Part shown: positions 53,508 to 57,060 of the stretch, piece by piece | How the letters are laid out: every line of letters starts with the position of its first letter | Numbering within the stretch: position 1 is the first letter of the stretch | Assembly (NCBI GenBank): GCA_000171835.1 | Contig: ABHC01000027.1 | Location: 1-64,000, forward strand | DNA length: 64,000 nucleotides | From: an alpha proteobacterium BAL199 | GTDB taxonomy: Bacteria > Pseudomonadota > Alphaproteobacteria > Thalassobaculales > Thalassobaculaceae | Direction: 5' to 3' | Made by a program: the position numbers and the translations under genes | The notes under the pieces: generated by a model | What the model saw: only the letters and a program-made list of their open reading frames with translations | Databases searched by the model: none | What the model was told of the DNA's origin: nothing

Positions 53508-54197
53508 TCAGCGCTGCCGGCTTTGCCACCAGCGGTGAACCGCCATGGGCAGCAACGCGAGAGCGATCAGGCCGGCGAGCGGCAATAACGTCTCGGGGGC
53601 GAGCAGCACTCCGAGGTCGAGCCGGGCTGCCTCGCTCAGATCCTGCAGGCGGCTGCCGATACCGCCCAGAACGAAGGACAGCGGCGCCACCCCGATCAGG
53701 GTTGCCAAGAACACCCAACGCACGCGGATGTCGATCGCGACCGGCAGCAGGTTGCCCACCCACGCCGGAACCAGCGGCAGGACCCGGATGGCCGCGAGGT
53801 ACAGCACTCCGTCGCGAGCCACCGCCGCTTCGTAGCGGGCGAACCGGCTGCCCTTGATTCGGGCTACGAGGCCGGGGAACACCCAGCGGCCGATCGCGGT
53901 GACGCCGATCGCCGCCAGCGCCGAACCCAATGCCGCCAGCACCGGCCCGGCGGCCGGTCCGAACAGGTAACCTGCCGTCAGCATAACCACGACGCCGCCC
54001 GGTATCGGGGTCACCTTTCCAAGCGTCGCGAATGTCAAAAACAGTCCGGCGCCGAGCACCGGATTTCGGGCGATCCAGTCCATCAGGCTGCGCGAGGCAT
54101 CGAGCATCTCGCCAGGCGACGGTGCGAACAGCACGACCGCAATGACGACGGCCGTGGCGGTGGCGGCCATCGCTACGCGGAGGGTTCGTCGGCTCAT
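53508..54197 (-). CDS. TVP38/TMEM64-family (VTT-domain) membrane protein (229 aa)
   Basis: The SNARE-associated Golgi/VTT domain covers most of the protein. Its conserved reentrant block is ATLGKVTPIPGGVVVMLTAG followed by YLFGPAAGPVLAALGSALAA. The C-terminal half reads AAIRVLPLVPAWVGNLLPVA, also typical. About six hydrophobic segments occur. ATG at 54197 was chosen over an upstream extension. DedA and TVP38 relatives act in membrane lipid flipping or proton-dependent transport; the role here is open. Confidence 0.88.
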   Translation of the reverse strand: MSRRTLRVAMAATATAVVIAVVLFAPSPGEMLDASRSLMDWIARNPVLGAGLFLTFATLGKVTPIPGGVVVMLTAGYLFGPAAGPVLAALGSALAAIGVTAIGRWVFPGLVARIKGSRFARYEAAVARDGVLYLAAIRVLPLVPAWVGNLLPVAIDIRVRWVFLATLIGVAPLSFVLGGIGSRLQDLSEAARLDLGVLLAPETLLPLAGLIALALLPMAVHRWWQSRQR

Positions 54198-54406
54198 TGG
54201 CTGCGGTGCATCGGTTCGACCCGGTTCATGGCCCCGACATCGCATCCAAAGCGGCAACCGTCCAGGCCAGCGTCCGGTCCGCACGATTCGCTAAGGCCGT
54301 AGCCTTCTAATGGTGATGGGCAAGATGCTGGAATAGCGCAATTTCTCCAGAAGGCTTGTCGTGGTGATCACCAATCCCCATGCTTTTTACATCCTAGTGC
54401 AACAGC

Positions 54407-54422
54407 AGAAAGGAGGTGATCC
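54407..54422 (+). promoter_or_regulatory. Ribosome-binding site matching 16 nt of the 16S anti-Shine-Dalgarno end
   Basis: AGAAAGGAGGTGATCC is the exact reverse complement of the usual bacterial 16S rRNA 3' end GGATCACCTCCTTTCT. It ends one base before an ATG at 54424, with GGAGG seven bases upstream of it. Normal RBS matches are four to eight bases, so a 16-base match is unusual and should bind ribosomes very tightly or act by another mechanism. Confidence 0.7.
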
Positions 54423-54423
54423 G

Positions 54424-54501
54424 ATGTCGAGTGAGATCGCGGTGCGGGTCGAACCCGTGTGTCTGGATCGTATGTCGGGGCATCCTTCGGCCACCTTCTG
54501 A
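54424..54501 (+). CDS. Short leader-peptide-like ORF (25 aa) with extreme RBS
   Basis: ATG at 54424 opens a 25-codon frame, MSSEIAVRVEPVCLDRMSGH then PSATF, ending TGA at 54501. It is preceded by the exceptional RBS at 54407-54422 and followed by a strong hairpin 35 bases later and then by DUF2161. The short length, strong RBS, terminator-like hairpin and downstream gene make a classical attenuation layout. I do not recognise it as a known leader. The peptide has no run of one amino acid to suggest which signal it would sense; Cys13 and the Arg codons are candidates. Confidence 0.55.
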   Translation: MSSEIAVRVEPVCLDRMSGHPSATF

Positions 54502-54535
54502 GGCACGATAACGTGTTCGAGCCAACCGGCTCACG

Positions 54536-54563
54536 GAAAGGCCGCCTCTCGGGGCGGCCTTTC
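54536..54563 (+). terminator. Strong hairpin between the short ORF and DUF2161
   Basis: GAAAGGCCGC and GCGGCCTTTC form a perfect 10-bp stem with an 8-base loop. A T-rich stretch (TTTCTCCGTTG) overlaps and follows the descending arm, weaker than a classical U run. It ends only a few bases before the GGAGG of the DUF2161 gene, so it would lower transcription of that gene unless opened or read through. Confidence 0.7.
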
Positions 54564-54579
54564 TCCGTTGGAGGCCTCG

Positions 54580-55278
54580 ATGCCTGAAACCGATCTGTCG
54601 GCACCGGTCGCCGCGTTCCTGGCCGCCCAGGGCTATTCGGTGAAAAGCGAGGTGGCGAACTGCGACCTGGTGGCGGTTCGCGACGGCGAGGCGCCGGTGG
54701 TGGTCGAACTGAAGCAGCGGTTCTCCCTCGACCTGCTGCTGCAGTGCGTCGACCGGTTGGCGGTATCGGACACGGTGTATCTGGCGTTCCCGGCGGAGAG
54801 CGCGGGTACGGCCTGGAAGAAGCGACGCAAGGCGGTGCTGAAGACCTGCCGGCGCCTGGGGCTTGGAATTCTGGTGCTGCGCGCCCAGCCCGATGGCAGC
54901 TACGCGGTGCTTCCTGTGCTGGATCCGGGAGCCTACCGGCCACGTGTGAACGCCAAGCGGCGAGGACGCCTGCTGAAAGAGTTTGCGAACCGGATCGGCG
55001 ACCCCAACACCGGCGGGTCGACCCGGGTGAAGATCATGACGGCCTACCGCCAGGATGCGCTGCGGGTCGCCGCCGCGCTCGCGGACGGCGGGGACCGGGC
55101 GGTGGCCGAGCTTCGGCCCGAGGCCCGGTCGACGGCGGTGGCCGGGCTGCTGCAACGCAACGTGTACGGCTGGTTCGAACGGGTCAGCCGTGGCCGCTAC
55201 CGCCTGACGCCGGCCGGGCAAACGGCACTGCGGACCTATGCCGAGACGGTGAGAGGCCTTGCCGGAACGCAGTGTTGA
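54580..55278 (+). CDS. DUF2161 family protein, PD-(D/E)xK nuclease fold (232 aa)
   Basis: The N-terminal half shows the PD-(D/E)xK pattern: NCDLVAVRDGEAPVVVELKQ gives Asp, Glu and Lys, and LDLLLQCVDRLAVSDTVYLA is the following helix and strand. DUF2161 proteins are annotated as putative phosphodiesterases; none that I know is characterised. The C-terminal half (residues 120-232) is helical, with a winged-helix-like end (LLQRNVYGWFERVSRGRYRL). ATG at 54580 has GGAGG. Upstream lies the short ORF and hairpin, so its expression may be attenuated. Confidence 0.85.
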   Translation: MPETDLSAPVAAFLAAQGYSVKSEVANCDLVAVRDGEAPVVVELKQRFSLDLLLQCVDRLAVSDTVYLAFPAESAGTAWKKRRKAVLKTCRRLGLGILVLRAQPDGSYAVLPVLDPGAYRPRVNAKRRGRLLKEFANRIGDPNTGGSTRVKIMTAYRQDALRVAAALADGGDRAVAELRPEARSTAVAGLLQRNVYGWFERVSRGRYRLTPAGQTALRTYAETVRGLAGTQC

Positions 55279-55302
55279 CCCGGGCAGGGCAACGGCAGAA
55301 CG

Positions 55303-56799
55303 TCAATGCACCGGCAGGTGCTCGTCGCCGACGTGGTTGCTGAACTTGGTGGTGGCGCCGTCGAAGTGCAGGGTCACGGTCCCGGTCGGCCCGTGGCGCT
55401 GCTTGGAGATGATGACCTCGGCCTTGCCGTAGGCCTTCTCGCAGAGTTCCTTCCACTTGTCGTGGCGGTCGTGGAACTTCTCCGGGCTCTCGTCCGGGCG
55501 CTCGGTCGGCTGGCCCTTGGCCAGATAGTACTCCTCGCGGAAGATGAACATCACCACGTCGGCGTCCTGCTCGATCGAGCCGGATTCGCGCAAGTCGGCC
55601 AATACCGGTCGCTTGTCCTCGCGCTGCTCGACCGCGCGGGACAGCTGGGAGAGAGCGAGCACCGGAACGTCCAACTCCTTGGCGATCGCTTTCAGGCCCT
55701 GGGAGATTGCCGAAATTTCCTGGACCCGGTTATCGACCCGGGCACCGGGTGACGGACGCATCAGCTGCAGGTAGTCGACGACGATCATGGCCAAGCCGTG
55801 CTGGCGCTTCAGCCGCCGGGCTCGGGTGCGCATGGTCGAGATCGGCAATGCCGGCGTGTCGTCGATGTACAGCGGGATGCGCTCAAGCTCCTGGCTCGCC
55901 TGCACGAGACGGCCGAAATCGTCGTCGTTGAGCTGGCCGCGGCGCAGCTTCTCCGACGAGATGCCGGTGCGCTCGGCGAGGATACGGGTGGCAAGCTGCT
56001 CCGAGGACATTTCGAGCGAGAAGAACGCGACCGGCAAGGGCGCTTGACTGGGATCGCGCAGGTTGGTTGTGGCGATGTTGAAGGCGATGTTGGCCGCCAG
56101 CGCGGTCTTCCCCATGGCCGGGCGTGCCGCCAGGATCAACAGGTCCGAGCTGTGCAAACCGCCCAACAGATTGTCCAGGTCGACCAACCCGCTCGAGAGT
56201 CCGGCCAGACCGCCCTCGCGGCGGAACGCGGCTTCGGCCATCGAGACCGATTCCGCCATCGCTGTCTTGAATTCGGTGAAGCCACCCTCGGCCTGACCGT
56301 TCTCGGCCAGATTAAACAAATGGGCCTCGGCCTTTTCGATCTGCTCGGTCGCCGGACTGTCGATGTCGCGGTCGAATGCGTCGTTGACGATGGTCTCGCC
56401 GACTTCGATCAACTGGCGGCGCAGGAAGCAGTCGCGGATCTCGCGGCCATAGTCCTCGGCGTTGATCACCGTGACTACGGAGGCCGCCAAGCGCACCAGA
56501 TAGGCGGCGCCGCCGACTTCCTTCAGCGCTTCATCCTGGTCGAACAGCCCTTTAAGCGTGACCGGAGTGGCCATCTGGCCGCGGTCGATCAACCGTCCGC
56601 ATGCTTCATAGATCCGTCCGTTCACCGGATCGGCGAAGTAGTCGGCGCGCAGGAACTCCGACACGCGCTCATAAGCGCGGTTGTTGATCAGGACGGCGCC
56701 GAGCAGCGCCTGCTCGGCTTCCAGGTTGTGCGGCGGCTCGCGGTGGGTCGCCGCTTCGACACCGGGAAACAGGGCTATGCGGGACTCGGACTCGGGCAT
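55303..56799 (-). CDS. dnaB: Replicative DNA helicase DnaB (498 aa)
   Basis: This is the hexameric 5'-3' helicase at the fork. The N-terminal domain (LEAEQALLGAVLINNRAYER) leads to the RecA-like core: Walker A in ILAARPAMGKTALAANIAFN, the H-motif region, Walker B in AMIVVDYLQLM, and the arginine-finger region in VLALSQLSRAVEQREDKRPV with ESGSIEQDADVVMFI. ATG at 56799 was chosen; an upstream GTG at 56853 would add 18 residues. It lies between rplI and alr in the usual class order. No intein or insert is seen. Confidence 0.96.
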   Translation of the reverse strand: MPESESRIALFPGVEAATHREPPHNLEAEQALLGAVLINNRAYERVSEFLRADYFADPVNGRIYEACGRLIDRGQMATPVTLKGLFDQDEALKEVGGAAYLVRLAASVVTVINAEDYGREIRDCFLRRQLIEVGETIVNDAFDRDIDSPATEQIEKAEAHLFNLAENGQAEGGFTEFKTAMAESVSMAEAAFRREGGLAGLSSGLVDLDNLLGGLHSSDLLILAARPAMGKTALAANIAFNIATTNLRDPSQAPLPVAFFSLEMSSEQLATRILAERTGISSEKLRRGQLNDDDFGRLVQASQELERIPLYIDDTPALPISTMRTRARRLKRQHGLAMIVVDYLQLMRPSPGARVDNRVQEISAISQGLKAIAKELDVPVLALSQLSRAVEQREDKRPVLADLRESGSIEQDADVVMFIFREEYYLAKGQPTERPDESPEKFHDRHDKWKELCEKAYGKAEVIISKQRHGPTGTVTLHFDGATTKFSNHVGDEHLPVH

Positions 56800-57060
56800 G
56801 ACGGGCGCACTGACGGTTTGATTCGGGGCGTCGGGCCGTTCGTGCCGGACCAACTCGGCACCGGCATGGATGGATCATAACCGATACCGGGTTTGATGGC
56901 GTCAAACCACCGGTTGCCGGCAAGAATCATGGGGGCGAATCGGATCAGGTTCTGTGGATCGATGGTGCAACTGGCGGTGTCGCAATGGCGTTGCCCGCCG
57001 CCGGCTGTGGACAATCCGGTTGCGGAACGATTGCCGGGGCGCTGCGGCGGCCGAAACGCA

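Follow-up and report, generated by a model that had tools for sequence, protein, structure and literature searches.

A divergent CC2171-like small RNA of Alphaproteobacteria with a complement of the entire 16S tail, a short reading frame whose translation appears to be selected and a putative role in ribosome gating

The DNA analysed here (the window) is a stretch of 64,000 nucleotides from contig ABHC01000027.1 of the alphaproteobacterium BAL199. An earlier note on this DNA had described an exact 16-nt complement of the 16S rRNA 3' end, followed by a 25-codon open reading frame (ORF) and a perfect 10-bp GC-rich hairpin ahead of the ribosome-binding site of a DUF2161 gene. All of these features were recovered: the motif lies at 54407-54422 and is both unique and conserved, the ORF runs from an ATG at 54424 to its end at 54501, and the hairpin is found within 54536-54563. 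The hairpin region begins about 34 nt past the stop of the short ORF (sORF), has a weak U-tract behind it and is followed by GGAGG and the DUF2161 ATG at 54580. On the other side, a gene for a VTT-domain (DedA-like) membrane protein occupies 53508-54284 on the reverse strand, divergent from the small RNA described below, and it lies on the same side of this RNA in both congeners. The features of the locus, several of them predicted, are as follows.

54355-54360, forward strand: predicted -35 element CTTGTC, assigned in the window copy by analogy with a T-rich block that 77 non-redundant homologs carry some 50 nt upstream of the motif
54379-54384, forward strand: predicted -10 element CATGCT with an 18-nt spacer, corresponding to an A/T-rich block that homologs carry some 20-26 nt upstream of the motif
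54391-54568, forward strand: predicted independent small RNA, CC2171-like, with approximate ends (RF01867 match; promoter-like and terminator-like boundaries)
54400-54406, forward strand: CAACAGC, corresponding to the family's conserved and unpaired leader CAACAA(C) (conservation at positions -7 to -3)
54407-54422, forward strand: Shine-Dalgarno (SD) site, complement of the entire 16S tail GGATCACCTCCTTTCT (pattern search, class tails, duplex energy)
54424-54501, forward strand: sORF of 25 codons, ATG to TGA, with the peptide MSSEIAVRVEPVCLDRMSGHPSATF before the stop (ORF list; family-wide selection on start and length, hardly on peptide)
54431-54435, forward strand: 5' strand of helix P1, GTGAG, codons 3-4 (covarying P1)
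54475-54488, forward strand: putative internal anti-SD TCGGGGCATCCTTC, a degenerate copy of TCGGAGCARCCTYY and mimic of the 16S tail (paired with the SD in an RNAalifold prediction for the window clade; family tests)
54491-54498, forward strand: second anti-SD candidate CCACCTTC
54519-54532, forward strand: predicted small hairpin GAGCC-N4-GGCTC, its 3' arm overlapping the P1 3' strand (window-clade fold)
54530-54534, forward strand: 3' strand of helix P1, CTCAC (covarying P1; window-clade fold)
54536-54563, forward strand: terminator-like GC-rich hairpin, perfect over 10 bp, GAAAGGCCGCC-TCTC-GGGGCGGCCTTTC (terminator in 82/85 homologs)
54580-55278, forward strand: DUF2161 gene, a neighbour without conserved partnership (Pfam PF09929, E=1.1e-36)

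The motif, AGAAAGGAGGTGATCC, is the sole match in the window at up to three mismatches (0.45 expected by chance) and, in a pattern search, the sole match at up to one mismatch across the 6.1-Mb genome. The 16S gene is absent from the BAL199 assembly and the tail was taken from other Alphaproteobacteria, nearly all of which, including two of the same family, read GGATCACCTCCTTTCT. Given this near invariance across the class, the motif can be taken as the exact complement of the tail, and the match proposed in the earlier note stands against the class sequence, the organism's own 16S being unassembled. The motif spans the entire single-stranded 16S end beyond helix 45, and the predicted duplex between the two reaches -30.4 kcal/mol compared with -11.2 kcal/mol for an ordinary AAGGAGG site.

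Copies of the motif outside 16S genes precede a short ORF that starts NRTGTC (61 related genomes). The possibility that they are antisense 16S fragments was rejected, as true 16S ends run on into ...AGCC (these were filtered out) whereas the copies considered here run on into NRTGTC. The exact pattern occurs in 68/387 genomes of the class with essentially one copy per genome, and the reversed-pattern control gave 0 matches in the same 387 genomes. In one sample, the small RNA was present in 57/113 Alphaproteobacteria compared with 0/186 other Pseudomonadota, with group sizes counted by hand from the result table. Among well-assembled Alphaproteobacteria, about half have the element, each in a single copy. 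One genome (G193) carries a copy of the motif (L241) in which the start codon is one base nearer (GATCCATGTC) and the open frame is longer.

The Rfam family RF01867 (CC2171) covers window positions 54400-54561 over its full length (model 1-159) in a cmscan search, with 40 bits and E=3.7e-7, which falls under the gathering score of the family (40 vs 75 bits). Four homologous loci elsewhere exceed this cutoff, and the Rfam-positive copies bridge to the window copy via intermediates. In a class sample, RF01867 matches 55/241 genomes at E<=0.001, with 9/241 passing the cutoff, and among 14 control genomes Caulobacter vibrioides alone matches. The structural hallmarks of the family, the terminator and a helix P1 that joins codons 2-6 to the bases ahead of it, are present in the window copy, where P1 is GTGAG/CTCAC. 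At the Rfam gathering score the window itself yields one tRNA only, and no riboswitch or RNA-thermometer family. Judging from its sequence, we regard the feature in the window as a separate small-RNA gene, a divergent relative of CC2171 with a predicted promoter and terminator of its own. CC2171-like copies also occur on contigs listed as viral in IMG/VR (L255-L258, L260), perhaps representing prophages or host flanks.

CC2171 itself is said to go back to Landt et al. in 2008, as a small RNA of Caulobacter. In the papers that our literature search found, it appears only among Rfam families or genome predictions; no functional study was among them, and neither selection on its ORF nor its spread across the class is described there. 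Schrader et al. (PMC4117421) report ncRNA regions that are mostly untranslated and two earlier-predicted ncRNAs that are in fact translated, and CC2171 is not named in their text on the translated ncRNAs. What has so far been a Caulobacter sRNA in Rfam can now be tested across a whole bacterial class.

The order of motif, sORF and hairpin had been interpreted in the earlier note as a cis attenuation leader, in which translation of the 25-codon ORF would set termination at the hairpin before DUF2161. Within the window's genus, 17 nt separate the hairpin from the DUF2161 start and the U-tract of the hairpin is weak, so that read-through could feed DUF2161. However, the association with this gene is absent outside the genus: among the 80 DUF2161 loci fetched in all, the motif was near the gene at 0/79 other loci outside the genus, the congener M30B52 being the one nearby case. 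The motif is present in 19/31 named DUF2161-bearing genomes, away from DUF2161 save in this congener. Moreover, in four genomes of the window's family (G026, G030, G034 and G035) the same RNA directly precedes a convergent dnaB with no DUF2161 between them. DUF2161 sits between the small RNA and the convergent dnaB in the window's genus only (window 54580-56853), which suggests that it was gained or lost there. In other families the neighbours are unrelated and lie on either strand, and include genes for a PLP decarboxylase, an FGGY kinase, a methionine synthase, a cupin, an FAD oxidoreductase, an integrase, a phosphotriesterase, a TetR regulator and a dehydratase. An attenuation leader would be expected to be conserved together with its gene and to encode a peptide that is either conserved or rich in regulatory codons; in this family leader and gene are not conserved together, the ORF lacks a run of regulatory codons and its peptide is unconserved. 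Control of DUF2161 by attenuation is thus extremely unlikely, and an exact 16-nt complement of 16S followed by a short ORF need not mean a leader for the next gene.

When 77 non-redundant homologs are aligned at the motif, the SD is preceded by blocks resembling a -35 element (T-rich) and a -10 element (A/T-rich) and by a conserved CAACA leader, and the start triplet follows it at fixed spacing; the SD was the search key for these homologs, but its flanks were not. Hexamers similar to the predicted -10 element CATGCT are present in both congeners. An intrinsic terminator follows in 82/85 homologs compared with 33/252 control windows. Its distance from the motif hardly varies, the stem ending at a median of 165 nt past the motif, and the ORF never reaches it (median gap 42 nt). 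The predicted RNA is about 170-190 nt long and would consist of an unpaired leader, the SD, a start codon at fixed spacing, an ORF of about 25 codons and the intrinsic terminator.

With the start triplet left free in the search pattern, 62/64 non-16S exact matches carry ATG, GTG or TTG at the fixed spacing and 0 carry CTG. The ORF is 18-36 codons long in 92.5% of 94 homologs, compared with 23-27% for the two other frames. This conservation of start codon, spacing and length would also be expected of an ordinary small-protein gene, in which a functional peptide is made and the strong SD serves high expression, and coding constraint is indeed seen in a distinct gene of Azospirillum and Skermanella that has this SD. 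However, substitutions in the small-RNA ORF are even over the codon positions (73:76:76 in 23 independent pairs), and the synonymous fraction is 0.39 compared with 0.30 under neutrality, slightly above it, so that weak selection on the peptide may still be at work. In the comparison coding gene with the same SD, the corresponding values are 35:22:46 and 0.65 vs 0.31. The peptides cannot be aligned between families, and conserved nucleotide elements sit in differing frames, with GGAGCARCC being read as E-Q-P or as R-S-S/N-L depending on the family. A functional peptide was rejected on the basis of the codon-position counts and the frame changes, which makes an ordinary small-protein gene very unlikely. 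It is the act of translating the ORF that appears to be under selection, while the peptide appears not to be, or hardly so.

Two groups of loci differ from the rest in this respect. The gene in Azospirillum and Skermanella (L261-L270, L113, L116; a related type in L200-L201) shares the ultra-long SD and an MSHG.. start, encodes a putative exported protein of 55-59 aa (MSHGA.PV..LFGLAALLTAGIA.ADCS...), is followed by a terminator and shows clear coding selection; some Azospirillum genomes (L280-L283) carry this gene plus a CC2171-like copy. In addition, a clade with a 14-codon ORF (L183, L255, L256, L258, L312, L313, L316) has a near-constant peptide, VS(Y/F/L)xKRCHLAGIAR, and here, unlike in the rest of the family, either the peptide or the RNA beneath it is conserved.

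Two pairings recur across the family. In P1, codons 2-6 pair with the pre-terminator stretch, in variants such as CATTGTC/GACAATG, CATTGCC/GGCAATG, AATGAG/CTCAT and GTGAG/CTCAC, among others. This helix is part of the Rfam consensus, shows changes on both sides in two alignments and was matched in strength by 0/5000 permutations. The second pairing joins the SD/start region to the body of the ORF, with -16.2 kcal/mol compared with -13.3 kcal/mol for dinucleotide shuffles (72/82, p=9e-12) and 0/5000 body permutations as strong. Pairing of the SD region with the 3'UTR, the post-terminator DNA or the upstream DNA was no better than with shuffles. In the CC2171-like clade, all four combinations A-U, C-G, G-C and U-A are seen between the base just after the SD (base 15) and its partner, in covariation counts that include phylogenetic relatedness. 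The comparison coding gene shows some SD-body pairing too (10/12, a small number). For the window copy, 115/1000 shuffles pair as strongly, which is within chance, and the mimic is degenerate, so any mechanism drawn from this pairing applies at the level of the family.

A held-out set of 33 further loci, with less than 80% identity to the earlier set and to one another, gave an ORF of 14-36 codons in 33/33, a terminator in 31/33 and SD-body pairing at p=4e-7, with 30/5000 permutations as strong for the SD-body pairing and 0/5000 for P1. These loci were found via the SD and the TGTC that follows it, so those two features are not independent in this set.

The element in the ORF body that pairs with the SD resembles the 16S tail, with one clade having CTGGATC-N3-GCCTC and the other GGAGCARCCTYY, compared with GGATCACCTCC in the tail. 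As no other part of the ORF body is as conserved, and as the element is kept at the RNA level, it could in principle be the seed of a trans-acting anti-SD sRNA that blocks target mRNAs, with the SD as a lock opened by the ribosome. However, elongating ribosomes would cover the mimic, and the mimic may serve closure of the SD alone, and we consider such a trans-acting function quite unlikely.

Because P1 and the helix between SD and mimic cross, they would either make up a pseudoknot concealing the ribosome-binding site or represent two alternative folds. Simple sequestration of the SD within a nested fold found no support, as the nested folds of full-length RNAs leave the SD slightly more open than in shuffles, and this leads us to the reading with crossing helices. 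Closure would then require a pseudoknot that lies beyond the folding program, or be confined to the nascent RNA. When nascent RNAs are folded only as far as just beyond the mimic, the SD is predicted to be covered, whereas in full-length nested folds it is freer than with a shuffled 3'UTR. This difference may represent a real switch or an artefact of pseudoknot-free folding, since the two helices cross. A literature search for precedents of an SD mimic or such a pseudoknot returned nothing directly relevant.

The openness of the SD in full-length nested folds, relative to a shuffled 3'UTR, would also be in line with a decoy or sponge, in which the exposed SD would titrate 30S subunits or sRNAs like alphaR8/SisA, which bear anti-SD sequences. 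The anti-SD of SisA-D is a 10-mer, and CrfA of Caulobacter, in the same class, acts as an RNA sponge for such sRNAs (PMC12559287). However, the conserved complement spans the whole 16S tail, beyond the need of a CCUCC-type seed, the conserved start codon and ORF length would be superfluous in a decoy, and the internal mimic would lower exposure of the SD. A decoy is unlikely on these grounds, and its specific form as a sponge for alphaR8 was rejected because a seed of that kind would need less than the full conserved complement.

Instead, we propose that this is probably a ribosome-gated small RNA, for which translation matters rather than the peptide. In the closed state, the internal mimic of the 16S tail would cover the SD/start region and a free 30S subunit would have to displace it, which the 30S tail could do because it pairs better. 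The translating ribosome would then melt P1 and the mimic helix, keep the RNA open and stop short of the terminator, and its release would let the RNA close again. The closed and ribosome-loaded states might differ in the lifetime of the RNA, in the exposure of its anti-SD strand to other mRNAs or in the holding of 30S subunits, all of which are candidate outputs. We infer this switching from what is found across the family, namely the anatomy of the RNA, its distribution, the selection on start codon and ORF length and the covariation. The function of the small RNA may therefore lie in sensing or handling ribosomes and not in control of the gene downstream. The suggestion of the earlier note that ribosome binding could itself be the signal has become the best-supported lead, resting on a start codon and ORF length that are kept without peptide selection and on covarying pairings, while the mechanism is our reconstruction. 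A more tentative and somewhat doubtful extension is that these RNAs are class-wide switches with the ribosome as ligand, in which the 30S tail and an internal copy of it compete for a long SD, which would make the RNA a reporter or a buffer of initiating-ribosome supply and the peptide a by-product. Few dedicated RNA sensors of ribosome supply are known, and if the mechanism holds this would be a natural sensor or buffer of that supply. The family would in any case represent an mRNA-like RNA in which ribosome binding and translation appear to be selected but the peptide does not, and in which the ribosome-binding site covaries with an internal imitation of the 16S tail.

Several known systems resemble parts of this arrangement. 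In the SAM-II and preQ1-II riboswitches a pseudoknot covers the ribosome-binding site, as predicted here, but in the CC2171-like RNA the covering strand lies inside the ORF and mimics the 16S tail, there is no Rfam riboswitch match and no metabolic gene lies downstream. The rnTrpL/peTrpL system of Sinorhizobium (PMC7298713, PMC10117765) likewise combines a short RNA, a short ORF and a terminator, whereas the CC2171-like RNA lacks a conserved downstream operon and regulatory codons and has a predicted promoter of its own and an unconserved peptide. Alphaproteobacterial small RNAs that act via SD and anti-SD sequences are also represented by alphaR8/SisA-D and CrfA (PMC12559287). However, the window RNA has no CCUCCUCCC-type loop motif within 54391-54568, and it appears to hold both SD and anti-SD in one molecule, together with a start codon and an ORF. 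Finally, although Rfam treats RF01867 as a plain ncRNA family, with P1 in its consensus line but without the SD-mimic helix, CC2171 aligns with the window RNA over its full length, from the CAACA leader and the SD through to the terminator stem, with P1 at the same place.
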